From: a virus
Virus record (IMG/VR): IMGVR_UViG_3300033155_002050
Span: 1-24,013 of that record
DNA length: 24,013 nucleotides
Reading direction: 5' to 3' (one strand)
In this document: in pieces, positions 1 through 23,764 of the stretch
How positions within the stretch are numbered: the first letter of the stretch is position 1
Layout of the letters: each line of letters begins with the position of its first letter
The notes under the pieces: model-generated
Database searches by the model: none
Seen by the model: the letters and a program-made list of their open reading frames with translations, nothing else
What the model was told of the DNA's origin: nothing
Program-made: the position numbers and the translations under genes

Positions 1-21
1 TACCCGATATTCTCATCATTC

Positions 22-156
22 TCAGGGGATAATCGCCAAAGCAACGCCAATGACAAATGCACTTGCGAGTTCAAATACAGAAAGAAGCTCTGTACCAAAA
101 CCAAAGCAAGCTACGATAACGAGCACAATACCTACCAGTTTCACGAAACCCTTCAT
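22..156 (-). CDS. Small hydrophobic membrane protein (44 aa)
   Basis: A 44-codon frame on the minus strand starts with ATG (complement of 154-156) and ends with TGA (complement of 22-24). A good Shine-Dalgarno sequence, AAGGGAG, lies about 7 nt upstream of the start. The peptide opens MKGFVKLVGIVLVIVACFGF and continues with a second apolar stretch near residues 32-43, with a short linker holding two acidic residues between them. This predicts one or two membrane segments. It is the only plus/minus divergent gene supported here. I recognise no family. A small lysis-associated or superinfection-related membrane peptide is possible because a holin-like gene lies across the intergenic region, but that is inference. 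Confidence 0.6.
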   Translation of the reverse strand: MKGFVKLVGIVLVIVACFGFGTELLSVFELASAFVIGVALAIIP

Positions 157-218
157 TTTCAACTCCCTTTACTAAAAAGAAAAAAACACACATATAAACA
201 ATTTATATATGCAGGGCA

Positions 219-247
219 TAGATAAAATAGGTGGCAAGGATTGTCAA
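219..247 (-). promoter_or_regulatory. Candidate sigma70-like promoter for the minus-strand gene
   Basis: Read on the minus strand, a perfect -35 box TTGACA (complement of 242-247) is followed after 17 nt by TATCTA (complement of 219-224). The -10 match is poor, but the spacing is ideal and the promoter points at the 44-aa gene. The -35 box abuts the outer stem of the three-way-junction repeat that begins at 247. Confidence 0.4.
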
Positions 248-321
248 TGGTGACATTTGTTCCCTGCGCTGTATTTCCGCAGGGTTACATTGGGCTCTTT
301 CAATGTAACAAATGTCATCAT
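247..321. other. Three-way-junction inverted repeat
   Basis: Three perfect or near-perfect stems nest without spare bases. The outer stem pairs 247-260 with 308-321 (14 positions, one G-T wobble). Inside it, 262-268 (CCCTGCG) pairs with 278-284 (CGCAGGG), and 285-292 (TTACATTG) pairs with 301-308 (CAATGTAA). The result is a T-shaped fold with two arms, drawable in either RNA or single-stranded DNA. I see no T-run next to it, so it is not a plain terminator. Its function is unknown; candidates are a structured RNA, an origin or nicking site, or a recombination site. Confidence 0.65.
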
Positions 322-433
322 TTACAAAACGTTGAGTTTTTGACACAAAGGACGAAGTCCTGTGCAAAAATTCATAAGAGGTCTGCAGTCCGGATCAGCA
401 TTAAATATAGCGCCCCCAAAAAATCGGATAAGG

Positions 434-478
434 AATTGCCCCTGCGGCTTTATGCAGGAGCAATTACCCGCATTTTTT
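434..478 (+). terminator. Hairpin followed by a T-run
   Basis: AATTGC and CCTGC (434-445) pair with GCAGG and GCAATT (455-465) around one C-A mismatch, and TTTTTT follows at 473-478. The gap of 7 nt between stem and T-run is longer than usual, so terminator function is uncertain. Just upstream, 344-364 forms a smaller hairpin whose core is AGGAC-GAA-GTCCT. Confidence 0.4.
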
Positions 479-505
479 GTGGTAGATAGATTTATATGCC
501 CGGAT

Positions 506-559
506 GCTCACATGAGAAAGCCCCATCTTTGGCGCTTTTGCCAGGGGCTTTCTGTGAGC
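506..559 (+). terminator. Long two-part terminator-like hairpin
   Basis: GCTCAC (506-511) pairs with GTGAGC (554-559). Inside, AGAAAGCCCC pairs with GGGGCTTTCT, and the apex carries a small TGGC/GCCA stem. The downstream bases CACCCCTATTTTAT are moderately T-rich. It is the most stable simple hairpin in the left region and probably ends a plus-strand transcript, or separates the left transcription unit from what follows. Confidence 0.5.
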
Positions 560-636
560 ACCCCTATTTTATAATGCCCAGTATATATATATATTACTAG
601 TGAAAGCAGTCCCGATATAAATATCAATATAGCGGA

Positions 637-667
637 AGAAGGCGAGGCTGATTTTGCCTCACCTTCT
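637..667. repeat. Hairpin with internal C-A mismatch
   Basis: AGAAGG-C-GAGGC (637-648) pairs with GCCTC-A-CCTTCT (656-667) across a 7-nt loop. The arm design (6 bp, one C-A mismatch, 5 bp) is the same as in the hairpin at 434-465, although the sequences differ. No T-run follows. Confidence 0.5.
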
Positions 668-724
668 GGAGCACAGTGCACAGGCGCTAAAACAACAGGC
701 ACTATCGTTGTTTTTAGAATGTGC

Positions 725-793
725 ACATAGGGACGACTTGAACGGCCCGCTATATAGGGACAAAGAAGGGAGCTTGCGACCGCGTCCCTATGT
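725..793. repeat. 11-bp perfect inverted repeat
   Basis: ACATAGGGACG at 725-735 is exactly inverted at 783-793. The 47-nt interior holds a further partial copy (TATAGGGACA near 752-761). No credible gene occupies this stretch; a 62-codon plus-strand frame over 654-842 lacks a good ribosome binding site and family resemblance. Confidence 0.5.
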
Positions 794-856
794 AGCTAAT
801 GATGAGAGCCAAACAATTGTGATGTTGCCTCATGAAGTATAGAGTGGCGCAGTGCC

Positions 857-1269
857 CTCCTAGACACAGGCTGTATGTGCCTGTAGGCTAGTAAGGAGCA
901 CAAGCTTCATGCCCCCGCGCGGTGTACGAGGCAACATGCAATTGCCATGCTGTATGTGCATGGGAGGGGTCGTAGGGGGTAACCCCTACATTGTATGAGC
1001 ACACATACAGGCGTAAGCCTGCCACGCGCTCTTGCGTGGGTGAGCGTAGCGAACTGTGTGCGAATGAAGAAGGCACTCCAAACTGGGCGAAGCCCAAGGC
1101 TTGGAGTGCGTCCTTGTATTATCTATCACACATGACGTCTGTGTCGTGTGTAGCCAAGGGTTCAAAGGGACAGGATGTCCCTTGGCGAGCGCGAAGCGCG
1201 AGCTAAGGTACGTAAGCCTAACTGCGCGAAGCGCAGACAAGGGTTTGTAAAACAGTGAGCGAAGCGAAC
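857..1269. ncRNA. Hairpin-dense non-coding region, candidate structured RNA
   Basis: About 410 nt carry at least eight small, mostly perfect hairpins in close succession. They are 866-884 (ACAGGC/GCCTGT), 935-962 (CATGCA/TGCATG), 972-989 (7 bp, GTAA loop), 992-1009 (TGTATG/CATACA), 1008-1021 (CAGGC-GTAA-GCCTG), 1022-1039 (CCACGC/GCGTGG), 1073-1109 (9-bp stem enclosing GGGC-GAA-GCCC), 1154-1185, 1189-1199 (GCGC-GAA-GCGC) and 1222-1236 (CTGCGC-GAA-GCGCAG). A near-identical 15-mer, GTGAGCGWAGCGAAC, occurs at 1040 and 1255. Stop codons interrupt all frames and the short frames present have no good ribosome site. The hairpin density suggests a large structured phage RNA, or a replication or packaging region. 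The strand is undecided. Confidence 0.4.
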
Positions 1270-1300
1270 GTTTAGGTGTTAACGCCAGAAGCATGGCCCT

Positions 1301-1408
1301 GGGGTGTGCCCGAGCGGGACATACCCCCCCCTCCCCCTCCCCCTCCACTGGGGTAAGCTGCGACTTGTGCGGACACGGAAATATTAATAGGGGGTGTGAG
1401 GGGTGGGG
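1301..1408. other. Hairpin plus C-tract and G-tract pair
   Basis: A hairpin at 1301-1327 (GGGGTGTG, then CCCG-AG-CGGG, then ACATACCCC) runs into a C-rich tract at 1324-1346: runs of 8, 5 and 5 C separated by single T. The minus strand there has enough G-runs for a G-quadruplex. On the plus strand, G5, G4 and G4 runs follow at 1390-1394, 1400-1403 and 1405-1408, so the two tracts could also pair with each other. Nothing here looks coding. Confidence 0.5.
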
Positions 1409-1482
1409 CGTTCACTTGTTGAAATGTATATATAAGGCCTATTACCACTTACACAATCAAGGAGGACCCCTTTTGCCTCACC

Positions 1483-1608
1483 ATGGGAAAAGCGCCACCA
1501 CAGCAAAGTTCAAAAACGGGGAGGGTGAATACTAAAACCAATGCAGTAATTAACCATATATGGCAAATTACTGGTTCGGTATCGAACCACAAGGCAAAAA
1601 GCTTGTAA
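1483..1608 (+). CDS. Possible small basic peptide (41 aa) or leader peptide
   Basis: A perfect Shine-Dalgarno AAGGAGG stands at 1459-1465, so something is probably translated here. With ATG at 1483 the frame gives a 41-aa basic peptide ending at TAA 1606-1608, but the 17-nt spacing is too long. A TTG at 1473 has ideal 7-nt spacing and gives a 20-aa peptide in another frame, ending at 1535. The first dispersed palindrome (1572-1589) lies inside the 41-aa frame. I recognise neither peptide. A leader peptide, or a decayed gene start, is equally possible. Confidence 0.25.
   Translation: MGKAPPQQSSKTGRVNTKTNAVINHIWQITGSVSNHKAKSL
1572..1589. repeat. Dispersed palindrome, copy 1
   Basis: TGGTTCGGTATCGAACCA: 7-bp arms around GTAT. 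It lies 50 bp upstream of the first tandem promoter. Three related copies are at 8511, 16231 and 21231. Confidence 0.85.
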
Positions 1609-1638
1609 AGTGTGTTTACAAGCAAAAATGCTTGTAAA
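1601..1638. promoter_or_regulatory. Three alternating GCTTGTAAA boxes
   Basis: GCTTGTAAA (1601-1609), its inverse TTTACAAGC (1615-1623) and GCTTGTAAA again (1630-1638) sit immediately upstream of a -35 box at 1640. Neighbouring pairs can form a 9-bp hairpin in either register. The position suggests operator sites for an activator or repressor, or competing RNA hairpins. Confidence 0.5.
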
Positions 1639-1639
1639 G

Positions 1640-1669
1640 TTGACAATATACCCGGGTTTAGTATACAAT
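1640..1669 (+). promoter_or_regulatory. Candidate sigma70 promoter P1
   Basis: TTGACA (1640-1645) and TACAAT (1664-1669) are 18 nt apart. The -10 box overlaps the palindrome CAATATATTG (1666-1675). A second TTGACA at 1684-1689 lacks a clear -10 at good spacing but is followed by another CAATATATTG at 1707-1716. Transcripts would run rightward into the holin gene. Confidence 0.55.
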
Positions 1670-1747
1670 ATATTGGTGATTAGTTGACAATAACGCCAGT
1701 AATACACAATATATTGTTGGTTATCTCTCAAATAATGCAATATATTC
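1644..1747. promoter_or_regulatory. Array of CAATATAT boxes (operator-like)
   Basis: Related boxes occur at 1644 (CAATATACCC), 1666 and 1707 (both the perfect 10-bp palindrome CAATATATTG) and 1738 (CAATATATTC). A further one, CAATATATCC, lies at 1899 on the -10 box of the last promoter. Overlap with the promoters argues for regulatory binding sites, although AT-rich promoters can produce such words by convergence. Confidence 0.4.
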
Positions 1748-1873
1748 ACGACAAACCAATTTTGTTCCACCCGCGCCAGGCCAGATTCACGAAAAGACAT
1801 CATACTGCACTCTCGGTTTAGACATATTGTGACTATGGGACAAAATTAAGGTTGAATCGCTGAAAAACACCCC

Positions 1874-1902
1874 TTGACAAATTGAAACTTTGTGGGTACA
1901 AT
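1874..1902 (+). promoter_or_regulatory. Strong sigma70 promoter P3 for the holin/virion operon
   Basis: TTGACA (1874-1879), a 17-nt spacer and TACAAT (1897-1902) give a near-consensus promoter. An interrupted repeat ACAAA...TTTGT (1878-1893) lies in the spacer. The transcript would have a leader of roughly 115 nt before the ATG at 2023, including a GTAACT/AGTTAC hairpin around 1957-1975. Confidence 0.75.
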
Positions 1903-1996
1903 ATATCCAGTGTTGTAACTACTACTTTGAAATTCGTCTACTACATAAGATTAGTAACTATATAAGAGAGTTACCACTGCGTGGCGCAAAACAAGT

Positions 1997-2016
1997 TTGA
2001 TAAGCTTATCAAGGAG
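1997..2016 (+). promoter_or_regulatory. Perfect palindrome merging into the holin ribosome binding site
   Basis: TTGATAAGCTTATCAA (1997-2012) is a perfect 16-bp palindrome and its last two bases are the first two of the Shine-Dalgarno AAGGAG (2011-2016), 6 nt before the ATG at 2023. It may be an operator. In RNA it may be a hairpin that tunes access to the ribosome binding site. Confidence 0.6.
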
Positions 2017-2022
2017 TAATAC

Positions 2023-2385
2023 ATGGACTGGAATCAACTATTGCTGGACATAATGCCTCTTTTGCAGCAGCTCTTAGTGATTGTTCTTTCCGCATTGCTG
2101 ATCTTTGCGACCAAGAAAGCGAATGAATGGATCAAAGCCAATACAGACGAGAGCCAACTGGCTCTTGTGAACATGGTTGCGAAACAAATCGTTCTTTTCC
2201 TGGAGCAAGTTGGAGAAGCACGTGGATGGGCAAGCTCAGAGAGTAAGAAAGAATACGCAGTAAACCGACTCATACAGGATCTCGCTGGTATGGGTGTTGC
2301 GATTACTATGGAACAAGCCGACCTCGCCATTGAGGCAGCGGTTATGGAATTCACCAACGAAGCAGCTTCAAACCTGCCGGGCTAA
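2023..2385 (+). CDS. Holin-like protein, LLH-type
   Basis: The 120-aa protein has one hydrophobic segment at about residues 7-30 (rich in Leu, Val and Ile), a Lys-Lys stop-transfer, and then an amphipathic soluble part. That layout (short N-terminus, single membrane helix, helical tail of about 85 residues with conserved Ala/Glu/Tyr pattern) matches the LLH family of phage holins (superfamily 6). Such proteins form inner-membrane lesions that let endolysin out at the end of infection. Start choice is firm: AAGGAG lies 6 nt upstream. It is the first gene after the strong promoter at 1874. No endolysin is visible beside it. A tail-associated membrane protein is the main alternative. Confidence 0.65.
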   Translation: MDWNQLLLDIMPLLQQLLVIVLSALLIFATKKANEWIKANTDESQLALVNMVAKQIVLFLEQVGEARGWASSESKKEYAVNRLIQDLAGMGVAITMEQADLAIEAAVMEFTNEAASNLPG

Positions 2386-8401: not shown

Positions 8402-8729
8402 AAAATACGAAGAAAAGATAGAAGAGGTCCTCCAGTCACATTCCGGACAAATGCCAGCCGCTGTATGGGCCGTCATGGCTATTGCTCGTGCGATTATCGA
8501 GCTGGCTGATGCGGTTCGGTACCGAACCGCTATGGTGCCATTTGTTCAGCCAGTATACCCGGTAAACCCTCCTTACGAGATTATTTGCACTGGGCAGACA
8601 GATGAAGAGTGCTCTCCATCTCCAATTTGCCCTTATTGTTCCATGTCACTCGATACCGCAGGCAATTGTACGAATACCCACTGCTACCAGGCGGGTATTG
8701 GTAAAGTTTTCGGGACCGATAGTGATTAA
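8394..8729 (+). CDS. Small protein with C-terminal zinc-ribbon-like Cys cluster
   Basis: The best start is ATG 8394, with GAGGAAG 4-5 nt upstream; an upstream in-frame ATG at 8343 has no such site. The 111-aa product begins with an acidic helix, has a hydrophobic helix near residues 20-40, a Pro-rich linker, and a Cys-rich end (CPYC...CTNTHC) that probably binds zinc. The coding sequence contains copy 2 of the dispersed palindrome (8511-8530). Function unknown. Confidence 0.55.
   Translation: MIEKYEEKIEEVLQSHSGQMPAAVWAVMAIARAIIELADAVRYRTAMVPFVQPVYPVNPPYEIICTGQTDEECSPSPICPYCSMSLDTAGNCTNTHCYQAGIGKVFGTDSD
8511..8530. repeat. Dispersed palindrome, copy 2
   Basis: GCGGTTCGGTACCGAACCGC is a perfect 20-bp palindrome inside the gene at 8394. 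Relative to the other copies the outer base pair is changed on both sides (T to C on the left, A to G on the right), which keeps the dyad. Confidence 0.85.
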
Positions 8730-16230: not shown

Positions 16231-16248
16231 TGGTTCGGCACCGAACCA
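16231..16248. repeat. Dispersed palindrome, copy 3
   Basis: TGGTTCGGCACCGAACCA, 8-bp arms around CA. It lies in the 68-nt gap between the decoration gene and the start of the scaffold gene (16290). Confidence 0.85.
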
Positions 16249-18968: not shown

Positions 18969-19523
18969 ATGGCATCTATACATGACGTGACGCTCGATTA
19001 CATCGAAGATGAACTAAGGGCAGCGCTTATCACCGAAGTTGATGATGATGATATTGCTCTGGTCGGCCACATGCAGCAAGGTCCTTCACAGGGTAGCCCA
19101 GCTCCAGACGCCGCACGCATAAGTGTAACAATACACGAGAATGACCCGGACGCTTTTTTCGACAATCCGGCGTCGGCCATCAAAAATGTATGGCCCGACG
19201 AAATCGCATTTGTTGAGACATCCCAAGTAATTACTTGGAAAAGACGCTTTACAATTAAGGCAAGATGTCTATTAGTGCGAACCAAAGAAACTAAAGACGT
19301 CGCGAGAGAAATTGCATCTACATTGCGCACTCGCCTCGAGGACACATTGCTGAGTATGGATTACACAGACGTAGAGGCTACTAATGGAGAGTATGTTTCC
19401 AGAAAAGCCGTAGCAAAATCCATGAAATCAGAAATGATTCAAGCAGGCGGCCCGCCCAATAGTTTCGATTATCACATCAAAGTAAGATTTGATGTTCTAA
19501 CAACAACGAGGAGTTTTGTATAA
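18969..19523 (+). CDS. Neck or tail-completion protein
   Basis: 184 aa. N-terminal helix (DVTLDYIEDELRAALITEVD), then beta-strands ending with WKRRFTIKARCLLVRTKE, and a helix DVAREIASTLRTRLED. It resembles the minor tail/tail-terminator or neck proteins found between connector and tail tube in siphoviruses. The start is 3 nt after the previous stop and the stop overlaps the next start (TAATG). The exact neck position is inferred from order. Confidence 0.55.
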   Translation: MASIHDVTLDYIEDELRAALITEVDDDDIALVGHMQQGPSQGSPAPDAARISVTIHENDPDAFFDNPASAIKNVWPDEIAFVETSQVITWKRRFTIKARCLLVRTKETKDVAREIASTLRTRLEDTLLSMDYTDVEATNGEYVSRKAVAKSMKSEMIQAGGPPNSFDYHIKVRFDVLTTTRSFV

Positions 19524-20476
19524 TGGTTCTTTCCGCTGATAGTTCAGTATTTGGAGTAGCGCAGCAAACAGGCAAGGGTACGCCTAATGTTACTGACGCT
19601 GATTTCAAATACATACTTTTCACAGAAGGAGTTCCTACACCTCAGAACATCACTCGCGCTCTTGACCGAGAAGTGGGTGCTGGCGCACTGCCGCAGGGCA
19701 GCGTTAAAGTAGGCGTTCTTTCTGGCGCGCAAATGCAGTTTATCCCACGTCCTCAAACGCTGGGCGAATTGTTATATGCGCAATTAGGTGCTGTGTCTAC
19801 CGAAGACAATACCACCTATTTTACTCACACATTTACCTTGCCAACCGACCAATTTTCTCAGCCTGGTGCTGATTTCATGCGTGGCGCATTCGCTTTCCAA
19901 GGCGGATTGCCACAAAAGGTTGCCTCTATGGCAGCTTGGGCCCCTCAGACTTATATTGACGAGGGTCCTCAATTCTTGTCACCGGTTTCCAGTATCGAAG
20001 TGCCAACAAGTACCTCTATCAAGGTATTAGAGGGCGCTATCACAATGGGCTCTGCCGTTCCTCTGGATGAGCAGTGGATTGTCGGAAGTTATTATCCCGA
20101 TGACACCCCAACCGTGAATCGTGCTATTGGCCTCACTATGACTGTCTTGATTGAGGATAATACACTTTATCAAAAACTTATGTACGACCCAACTGGTGGG
20201 GCAGACTGGACAGCAGACATCTTCAGAGAAGCGGATATTGCTCTTTCGTTTGTATCCGATCAAGAAGTTGACACTGGAGTTCCATACAGCTTATTGTTTG
20301 AAGCTAATGGCCAAAATGCCGCAAGCGGAGATAGTAATATCCAGTGGTCAGTACAACCAGTGGCAATTCAGGCTGGTCGACAGATGAAAATGATCATCTC
20401 AGGCATTTTCACCGCAAGTCCGACCGTAGACGAACCAATCACTGTAACACTCGTAAATGGCGAAGCATCTTACTAA
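19523..20476 (+). CDS. Tail tube (major tail) protein
   Basis: 317 aa. It opens with SSVFGVAQQTGKGTPNVTDA, the usual 'fGia.Q..kGTp' start of the phage_tube_2 group of tail tube proteins, and continues as a beta-rich protein with FTLPTDQFSQPGADFMRGAF and VPTSTSIKVLEGAITMGSAV. Tube rings stack to form the DNA channel of the tail. Position between neck and chaperone genes agrees. It is longer than simple tube proteins, suggesting an extra C-terminal beta domain. Confidence 0.8.
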   Translation: MVLSADSSVFGVAQQTGKGTPNVTDADFKYILFTEGVPTPQNITRALDREVGAGALPQGSVKVGVLSGAQMQFIPRPQTLGELLYAQLGAVSTEDNTTYFTHTFTLPTDQFSQPGADFMRGAFAFQGGLPQKVASMAAWAPQTYIDEGPQFLSPVSSIEVPTSTSIKVLEGAITMGSAVPLDEQWIVGSYYPDDTPTVNRAIGLTMTVLIEDNTLYQKLMYDPTGGADWTADIFREADIALSFVSDQEVDTGVPYSLLFEANGQNAASGDSNIQWSVQPVAIQAGRQMKMIISGIFTASPTVDEPITVTLVNGEASY

Positions 20477-21230: not shown

Positions 21231-21248
21231 TGGTTCGGCATCGAACCA
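21231..21248. repeat. Dispersed palindrome, copy 4
   Basis: TGGTTCGGCATCGAACCA, in the 118-nt gap between the chaperone stop and the tape-measure start. A 28-aa frame starting GTG 21249 and ending 21335 is present here but lacks a ribosome site. Confidence 0.85.
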
Positions 21249-21334: not shown

Positions 21335-23764
21335 ATGAGCTACGACGACGAAGATAATTGGTACGACAAGGCATTCCTTGAGGACGATGACGATCCAACT
21401 GGCGTTCCTTTTACAACAGACCATAATTTCAGTAGTTCGCGAGCTAGCATAGCTCCTTCGAATGTCTTTAATCAACAAAGCGTTCCTTTTAGACAGGACC
21501 GCACTTATACTCATTCGCGAGTTAGTAGCGCTCCTTCAAATGTCTTTAATTCACCTGGTTCGTATAACGCTTTTGGCTCATATGGTCAGCAGCCCGTAGA
21601 CGATGGTTTCAACAGTACCACTCCTTCGACTCTCGATAATACCCACGTTACTCCAGCGGTGAGGGCATGGCTGGATCAGACTCGAAAAGAATACAATTCT
21701 GCTAACGAAATCAATGATCGTATATTCGAAGCAGCCATTCGTCAATCCAGGCCAGCACAAACTGCAAATAGACTTGCAGCCGCTGCCGGAACTGAATTGC
21801 TCGATCCGTTAGTTGGCTTTAGAGGAACCTATAATGCAATGCAGGCTTCGTCAATAAGCCTGGAAAGTATTCTCGGAACGGAAAATATGTACAGAGGCAA
21901 AGGGTCTCTGGATGAATGGGGCAGAGAACAAACTGGTCATAGGTTCACTGGTAAAGGTAATGAATTGCGTCTTATCGATGCCTCCAGTGGAGAAGTAAAG
22001 CTAGATAAAGATCAAGTAAGAATGGCCCATGAGGCCACTCGCCAGGTTACAGATCAAGTAGTAGGTCAATCTATTTCTCCTGACGGACAAAATCTTGTCG
22101 GCACTATTCATAAAAATATCAATACAGCAATCGGAAAGTACGTTGATAAGTTAATGCAATCAACGCAGAATGATATAGCTCCGGAAGATGCCGCAATATT
22201 CGAAAAAACCATGAAAACCATGTATAACCGGATGGTTTCAAAGGTTACTGACCAATTGGCTGGTCAAGATGGTTTCGCCTCGTCTCATGTGAGAGGTCAG
22301 GCGTTCAACAGTGCGGTAGATCTCAACGTACATAACGAAGCTACGGCTAAAGAAGTACTTTCGAGAATGCCAGTAGGTGCTCAGCAAGCTGTAGATAAAG
22401 TTGGATTTACTGCTGCTTACAATAGTCCGACAGCACAATTTTTCTCTGGCGGTTCAGGCGAGCAGGGCGTTACTCTTGGTGGGTGGCGTCGCGGTGGTAG
22501 TAGTGGTGGAATGAACACAGGTGGCGGCGGCAGGGGTGGAATGGGCGGTCTCATGCATTCCGCATATATCGCTAAAAGAATGTGGAGTTATACTGGTGAG
22601 CCGGTTATGGCTGGCGCAGCAGAACATGTTAAGTCACAAGGTGAATATGCAGCATTATTCAGAACCGTAACTGGCCAAGATCCAATTACTTCAGATTATG
22701 GCGCTCAACTGCGCGCCGATGAAGTTTCTGGCGCACAAAATGAAGCAGCTTTTCAAAACATAGGCGCTCTCGGAGATGCGGCTTGGGTAGCAAACCAAGG
22801 TCCTAATGCGGATGCAAATCAGCGCTTGATTCAAGGTGGTAAATTAGCCGCGGGCGTTGGATTTATGGGAACCATAGCTGGTGGTGCATTGACATCATTG
22901 GCAGCTCCCGGCATTGCTGCAGCAGCCTCTGCTGGGGTAGCAGTAGGTGGAGGCACGGCTCTTCTGGCTGGTGCTGGAACGGTTTTAAGTGCTGCTGCAC
23001 TTCCAGTTGCTGGAGCATTAGCTGCTGGTTTTCTTGGAAACGAAGCATACAACTTGGCAACTGGCTCAGACACTGGTCTCGGTCAGAAATTCATGGGTGG
23101 GCTTTACGAGAATGCTGGACAGCGGGGTCAAATTGGTGCCCTTCGCGCGAAGGGTTACATGGGCCTTGCTACTTCTTTCAATTTAGAAGATCTAGTCAAG
23201 GCGTATGACGTCACAGACGAAGAAACCCAGGCGCAAATGACTCCTGGTATGGCAGCGATGTACGGACAGTCTCAACGGCAAGATGATTTCTCGCCATATG
23301 AGAAAACGATTAAAGATGCCGCTACATTAACCGGTGGAGACAAGAAGGCCTCTATTGCCCAAGCCAGGGGCCTAGATGTAATGTTTGGCGGGGATTCCGC
23401 AAAAATGTTGGATGCAGTTGGTTTGCTGTCCAGCATTGATGCTCCTCTCCAGGATAGTATCGCAAAAACTATTGGCTTGGCAGCACAGGGTGGTATCTTG
23501 CCTGGCGACACTAAGGCAATGGATAATTTGATAGACCAGTATGCCGGTACCGATGACGCTGGTCGTTCCGCGCTAACAGAAGAATATGGCGAATACGCTG
23601 CCATGGGTGGCATGCTTGGTCAATACACTGGTTCTGCTCGCAGTGGCTCTTCCCTAGCCAGGGAAGAAGGCTTGACTGCGATTACCGCTGGAACAACTCA
23701 GTCCTATATGGCCGCAGCAACACGCTACGGCTCGAACATGGACGATGTTGTAGGATACGACTAA
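21335..23764 (+). CDS. Tape-measure protein, N-terminal part
   Basis: 809 aa before the TAA. The plan is that of a tape measure, which sets tail length: an Asp-rich N-terminus, two 26-residue repeats (SVPF...APSNVFN; 21403-21480 and 21481-21558, period 78 bp), long Gln/Ala/Lys-rich helical stretches, a Gly-rich linker (about 368-405), a hydrophobic Ala/Gly block (about 504-575) that could be membrane-active during DNA delivery, and further helices. The start overlaps the previous frame (TAATG). The reading frame continues without shift after the TAA at 23762-23764. Confidence 0.75.
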   Translation: MSYDDEDNWYDKAFLEDDDDPTGVPFTTDHNFSSSRASIAPSNVFNQQSVPFRQDRTYTHSRVSSAPSNVFNSPGSYNAFGSYGQQPVDDGFNSTTPSTLDNTHVTPAVRAWLDQTRKEYNSANEINDRIFEAAIRQSRPAQTANRLAAAAGTELLDPLVGFRGTYNAMQASSISLESILGTENMYRGKGSLDEWGREQTGHRFTGKGNELRLIDASSGEVKLDKDQVRMAHEATRQVTDQVVGQSISPDGQNLVGTIHKNINTAIGKYVDKLMQSTQNDIAPEDAAIFEKTMKTMYNRMVSKVTDQLAGQDGFASSHVRGQAFNSAVDLNVHNEATAKEVLSRMPVGAQQAVDKVGFTAAYNSPTAQFFSGGSGEQGVTLGGWRRGGSSGGMNTGGGGRGGMGGLMHSAYIAKRMWSYTGEPVMAGAAEHVKSQGEYAALFRTVTGQDPITSDYGAQLRADEVSGAQNEAAFQNIGALGDAAWVANQGPNADANQRLIQGGKLAAGVGFMGTIAGGALTSLAAPGIAAAASAGVAVGGGTALLAGAGTVLSAAALPVAGALAAGFLGNEAYNLATGSDTGLGQKFMGGLYENAGQRGQIGALRAKGYMGLATSFNLEDLVKAYDVTDEETQAQMTPGMAAMYGQSQRQDDFSPYEKTIKDAATLTGGDKKASIAQARGLDVMFGGDSAKMLDAVGLLSSIDAPLQDSIAKTIGLAAQGGILPGDTKAMDNLIDQYAGTDDAGRSALTEEYGEYAAMGGMLGQYTGSARSGSSLAREEGLTAITAGTTQSYMAAATRYGSNMDDVVGYD

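Follow-up and report, generated by a model that had tools for sequence, protein, structure and literature searches.

What does a T-shaped inverted repeat near the left end of a phage sequence do: does it act alone or as part of something larger, and as DNA or as RNA? The stretch analysed here (hereafter the window) comprises 24,013 nt of the IMG/VR record IMGVR_UViG_3300033155_002050, and its given strand is called the plus strand. Its proteins match a holin, an HNH protein, a portal protein, a phosphoesterase and a major head protein, and a divergent TerL-like protein is encoded as well, through whose Walker-A-like motif relatives were reached; the genes for the TerL-like, portal, head and holin proteins mark the genome as belonging to a double-stranded DNA phage. 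The closest informative relative is L141 (JAUUYL010000058.1), a phage contig from a MAG bin assigned to Lentisphaerota (the bin may not be the true host), with identities of 89% in TerL, 91% in the portal protein and 92% in the major capsid protein (MCP) and with the same gene order, including the structured region described below. The features around the repeat are as follows:

22..155, minus strand: gene for a small membrane protein (MKGFVKLVGIVLVI...), kept in L141 (protein match through SVFEL...)
188..246, minus strand: left-facing promoter-like motif (TTGACA ... CCTATTTTATCTATGCCCTGCATATATA) upstream of the membrane-protein gene, conserved in L141
241..327, plus strand: T-shaped three-way junction with outer stem 241-260/308-327, hairpin B 262-284 and hairpin C 286-307
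553..593, plus strand: second copy of the promoter-like motif (CCCCTATTTTATAATGCCCAGTATATATATA), here facing right; identity to L141 97.6%

The T-shaped fold that the original prediction placed at 247-321 is present there, on a slightly longer span, with arms that reach in full over 241-261/307-327. The outer stem, described as having 14 positions, is a helix A of 15 bp including one G-U (246-260/308-322) with a basal extension (241-244/324-327). The inner stems, described as perfect and of 7 and 8 bp, are helix B (262-268/278-284, 7 bp, loop CTGTATTTC) and helix C (286-293/300-307), which consists of seven Watson-Crick pairs and one G-U below a GCTCTT loop. Almost no unpaired bases had been seen at the junction, and T261 and T285 are indeed the only two. 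Folded as RNA, 241-327 has a minimum free energy (MFE) of -38.6 compared to a mean of -16.1 for dinucleotide shuffles (z -7.6); folded as DNA it reaches -26.0 (z -8.9), and the RNA of the minus strand gives z -6.9, both again with respect to dinucleotide shuffles, none of which was as stable in any of the three folds.

L141 harbors the same T-shape in the same place (978-1094, MFE -54.3, z -8.9), with longer inner hairpins and largely rewritten arms. The two sequences were aligned with MAFFT from sequence alone (alignment A4, 61% identity), and each base pair of the window was then scored on this alignment. Nineteen of the 34 pairs are unchanged, 8 have changed on both sides and still pair, 5 carry one-sided changes that are paired in L141 and 2 are broken, one of them (252/316) through the aligner's placement of a two-base gap and the other within hairpin B, where 7 bases are inserted. 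When correctly aligned, the one-sided changes that stay paired either form G-U on the plus strand or restore a pair. Pairing is found in 95.6% of the cells, compared to 33-46% when the partners are slid by 1-3 columns, and the observed covariation measures were reached by 0-1 of 500 shuffles; as it rests on two sequences, this covariation is strong for the helix pattern and is no phylogenetic test. The comparison confirms that the T-shape is real and has been kept in L141 with matched changes in both arms, the opposite of the uncompensated arm mutations that had been named as counterevidence, and these compensated changes support the proposed reading as a compact structured RNA.

The other proposed reading, an origin or telomere hairpin of a single-stranded DNA element, is not supported. 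In L141 the T-shape is internal, flanked by genes on both sides and preceded on the left by coding sequence; it lies in a double-stranded DNA phage, and it is single copy, occurring once in the window record and once in the 2.6 Mb bin holding L141. A telomere or inverted terminal repeat (ITR) is thereby excluded.

The minus-strand -35 box at which the repeat was said to begin is TTGACA (245-240), which overlaps the base of the stem. The left-facing segment 188-250, the right-facing segment 553-612 and their L141 counterparts align, all four, as CCCCTATTTTATnATGCCCnGCATATATA. The view that the T-shape adjoins a divergent promoter is plausible in so far as the promoter-like motif is conserved, promoter activity being predicted from sequence. 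The right-facing motif may start an RNA near 583, in which case the T-shape would lie between two divergent promoters. The T-shape could also be the sole functional unit, an inverted-repeat operator or cruciform controlling divergent promoters at 190-245 and 553-593, with the rest of the region being separate; in favor of this, the TTGACA of the left motif sits in the stem base and an inverted repeat lies directly upstream of both motif copies. However, an operator would keep its arm sequence and here the arms change with compensation, a geometry of two hairpins has been retained where a simple palindrome would suffice, and the same loop types recur across 1.1 kb, so that this explanation appears improbable.

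The T-shape marks the left boundary of some 1.1 kb without convincing genes (~240-1340), a region flanked by the small membrane-protein gene on the minus strand, which reads away from the T-shape, and by the holin operon. The remainder of the region comprises:

333..374, plus strand: hairpin with a C(GAA)G triloop; its L141 counterpart is a hairpin with a TGTATGT loop
380..393, plus strand: conserved GGTCTRCAGTCC stretch (GGTCTGCAGTCC in the window, GGTCTACAGTCC in L141 1136-1147)
398..499, plus strand: long stem ending in an apical hairpin, with CGCCCCC / GTGGTAG conserved in its interior
503..564, plus strand: hairpin with a sequence-conserved base (GATGCTCACATG...TGTGAGCACCCC) and apical stems that differ wholly between the window and L141
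594..1340, plus strand: right-hand part of the structured noncoding region, including GTAA, GAA and GCTCTT hairpins
866-884 and 945-963, plus strand: TGTATGT hairpins within 594..1340
998..1062, plus strand: three hairpins that meet in a junction within a closing stem; covaries with its L141 counterpart (1592-1656)
1073..1109, plus strand: stem capped by GGGC(GAA)GCCC; in L141 (1766-1812) the cap is TGGGC(GCA)GCCCA and the stem base is rewritten

The overall RNA z of the region is about -12 (-11.95 on the plus and -11.4 on the minus strand for 330-1329, -11.4 for 641-1340), compared to about 0 to -1.8 for coding control segments, and the 0.9 kb or so that follows the T-shape in L141 (1095-2000) is structured too (RNA z -10.5). 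The junction at 998-1062 repeats the behaviour of the T-shape, with 5 double compensations among 22 pairs and 97.7% of cells paired. Protein coding was rejected, as the six-frame matches between the window and L141 run through stops. No Rfam family matched window 1-2100 or L141 1-2200 at the gathering threshold, and no lower-scoring match was found at E up to 10 in the former or up to 1 in the latter. Likewise, no tRNA gene was found in the window or the relatives tested, the sequence being incomplete. Three unrelated phage contigs (L169, L170 and L171) share intergenic hairpins of the form GATGCTCACA...TGTGAGCACC that resemble the conserved stem at 503-564, a likeness that is probably due to chance or to convergent terminators.

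In both phages, a few loops are reused on unrelated stems: TGTATGT or TGTATTT, GCTTTT-like loops and GNA triloops closed by C. Read on the plus strand, the perfect triloops of the two regions are GNA in 9 of 9 cases, compared to 3 of 47 elsewhere in both contigs (Fisher p 3e-8, a descriptive value since the loop classes were named after viewing the data), and 24 of the 29 loops in both regions are closed by C..G compared to ~36% elsewhere. Additionally, GCTGTATGTGC occurs four times in the 2.6 Mb bin holding L141, always in the structured region and on one strand. Loops in the T-shape and in the remainder have the same polarity, which suggests that the whole region works as one plus-strand molecule; the right-facing motif inside the region conflicts with this single-strand polarity. 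Template switching at quasi-palindromes, by which one arm is corrected from the other, would produce covariation free of function and stems as nearly perfect and G-U poor as those observed, but it leaves unexplained both the loop heptamer and the one-polarity GNA triloops shared on unrelated stems by two phages and the rarity of those loops in the rest of both genomes. Such a mutational origin is considered very improbable.

We favor the reading in which the T-shape would be the three-way-junction domain at the 5' (left) edge of the structured region (240-1340), and that region would act as a plus-polarity single strand, most probably a large noncoding RNA that the phage encodes and whose transcription we infer. 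This reading is judged likely, and the RNA is probably an undescribed one. It might present a few loops, in many copies, to a partner that binds them, as a scaffold or a CsrB-like decoy, or alternatively serve the kind of RNA assembly that GOLLD and ROOL build. A bolder version, put forward tentatively, would make it a new class of giant phage noncoding RNA of ~1.1 kb, consisting almost entirely of freely changing Watson-Crick stems with a small set of kept loops (UGUAUGU, GCUUUU, C-GNA-G); such a multivalent RNA would either capture a loop-binding protein of the host or the phage or assemble with itself via its loops.

On the other hand, G-U makes up 3-4% of the confident pairs of the structured region, compared to 9-15% in tmRNA, RNase P RNA and 16S of E. 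coli and ~10% in shuffles, and confident pairs are equally numerous on both strands, unlike in those three RNAs. The very low G-U share and the equal folding of both strands leave room for a role at the DNA level, in which plus-strand hairpins exposed during replication, packaging or promoter opening would be the functional form, for example as an origin, a packaging site or a regulatory region between divergent operons, the c(GNA)g loops serving the folding of single-stranded DNA. Triloops of the GNA type closed by C-G are extraordinarily stable in DNA (GCGAAGC minihairpins). These loops, the nearly all Watson-Crick, strand-symmetric stems, the position between divergently oriented genes and motifs and the DNA fold of the T-shape (z -8.9) were all counted in its favor. 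However, junctions nested within one another, whose arms can lie ~100 nt apart, point rather to RNA, the wobble changes give G-U on just one of the strands, the incomplete sequence revealed no replication gene, and E. coli csrB, which encodes a real RNA, has the same low G-U and strand symmetry. RNA is favored over DNA, a DNA element being possible but rather unlikely.

As far as could be searched, the element is so far limited to two close phages. Single-query searches with TerL and MCP retrieved only a near-identical contig that starts at window 10,115 and does not include the structured region, whereas a degenerate Walker-A pattern led to TerL relatives at 52-68% identity, and an alignment of TerL relatives (A1) to 19 virus loci (partly on the same contigs) and two MAG contigs. 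Among the TerL-related virus contigs and the L142 stretch, a model of the T-shape (R1) matched only the window and L141, and the noncoding gaps examined in more distant relatives, many of them on fragmentary contigs, contained no comparable fold. Further relatives were also sought with TerL, in 388 genomes from the L141 phylum, 31 from its order and 400 from the L142 phylum, and none was found. At the DNA level the structured region had no similar sequence among phages and plasmids, a pattern built on the conserved block 553-593 had no match, and a search with a holin alignment gave no relative. Two sets of candidates were rejected as unrelated: L003, found by the arm pattern, has an AT-rich inverted repeat that immediately precedes a phage repressor-like gene, and the matches to a GCTCACA stem pattern are other phage hairpins.

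Other sequence features of these genomes were recorded along the way. An 18-bp near-perfect palindrome, (T/C)GGTTCGGYRYCGAACC(A/G), is found at window 1572-1589, 8512-8529, 16231-16248 and 21231-21248 and in L141 at 6022 and 15213; these widely spaced, mostly intergenic sites look like a phage operator or stoperator family. Short direct repeats with promoter-like copies of the TTGACA-N18-TACAAT type occupy window 1589-1725, upstream of the holin operon, and two 71-base direct repeats (76% identity) lie at 21402-21550, near the start of a large tail protein gene. The near-identical contig L004 (9749-9834) has ~85 extra bases with respect to window 19861-19863, within the gene 19523-20476. In L141, positions 1-270, to the left of the membrane-protein gene, also fold strongly (z -6.8, and -16 for 1-700); their counterpart would fall beyond the left end of the window.

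With respect to known systems, the T-shaped ITR of parvoviruses has the same A-B-B'-C-C'-A' layout, but the element described here is internal, single copy and carried by a double-stranded DNA phage. The virion RNA polymerase promoters of phage N4 involve DNA hairpins with C-closed purine triloops near promoters, a likeness in phage DNA that does not extend to the dozen or so hairpins, several loop types and large junctions found here. Should the element act as DNA instead, a double-stranded DNA phage would be using a single-strand signal of unusual complexity. The pRNA of phi29 is likewise a phage RNA built on a three-way junction; its Rfam model is unmatched, and the present region is far larger and away from the terminase gene. 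The decoy RNAs CsrB and CsrC carry many stem-loops, with recurring loops on variable stems, and share the low G-U and strand-symmetric folding (E. coli csrB), but the loops here are TGTATGT, GCTTTT and GNA instead of the CsrA motif GGA, there is no Rfam match, and the region is three times longer. Large structured RNAs of phages are few so far, and for GOLLD and ROOL, the best studied among them, the roles are still unknown; together with OLE they are classed as large ornate RNAs (PMC12286853). All three are large, multi-junction noncoding RNAs, GOLLD and ROOL being encoded by phages or prophages. Unlike in these systems, a few recurring loop types dominate here and G-U is rare; their Rfam covariance models do not match at any useful score, and GOLLD and ROOL are often near tRNA genes in phages whereas none was found near 240-1340 in the incomplete sequence. 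If the RNA reading is true, this second large-RNA architecture would offer a tractable case, with loops that name candidate binding sites and the T-shape as a compact domain for structure work.
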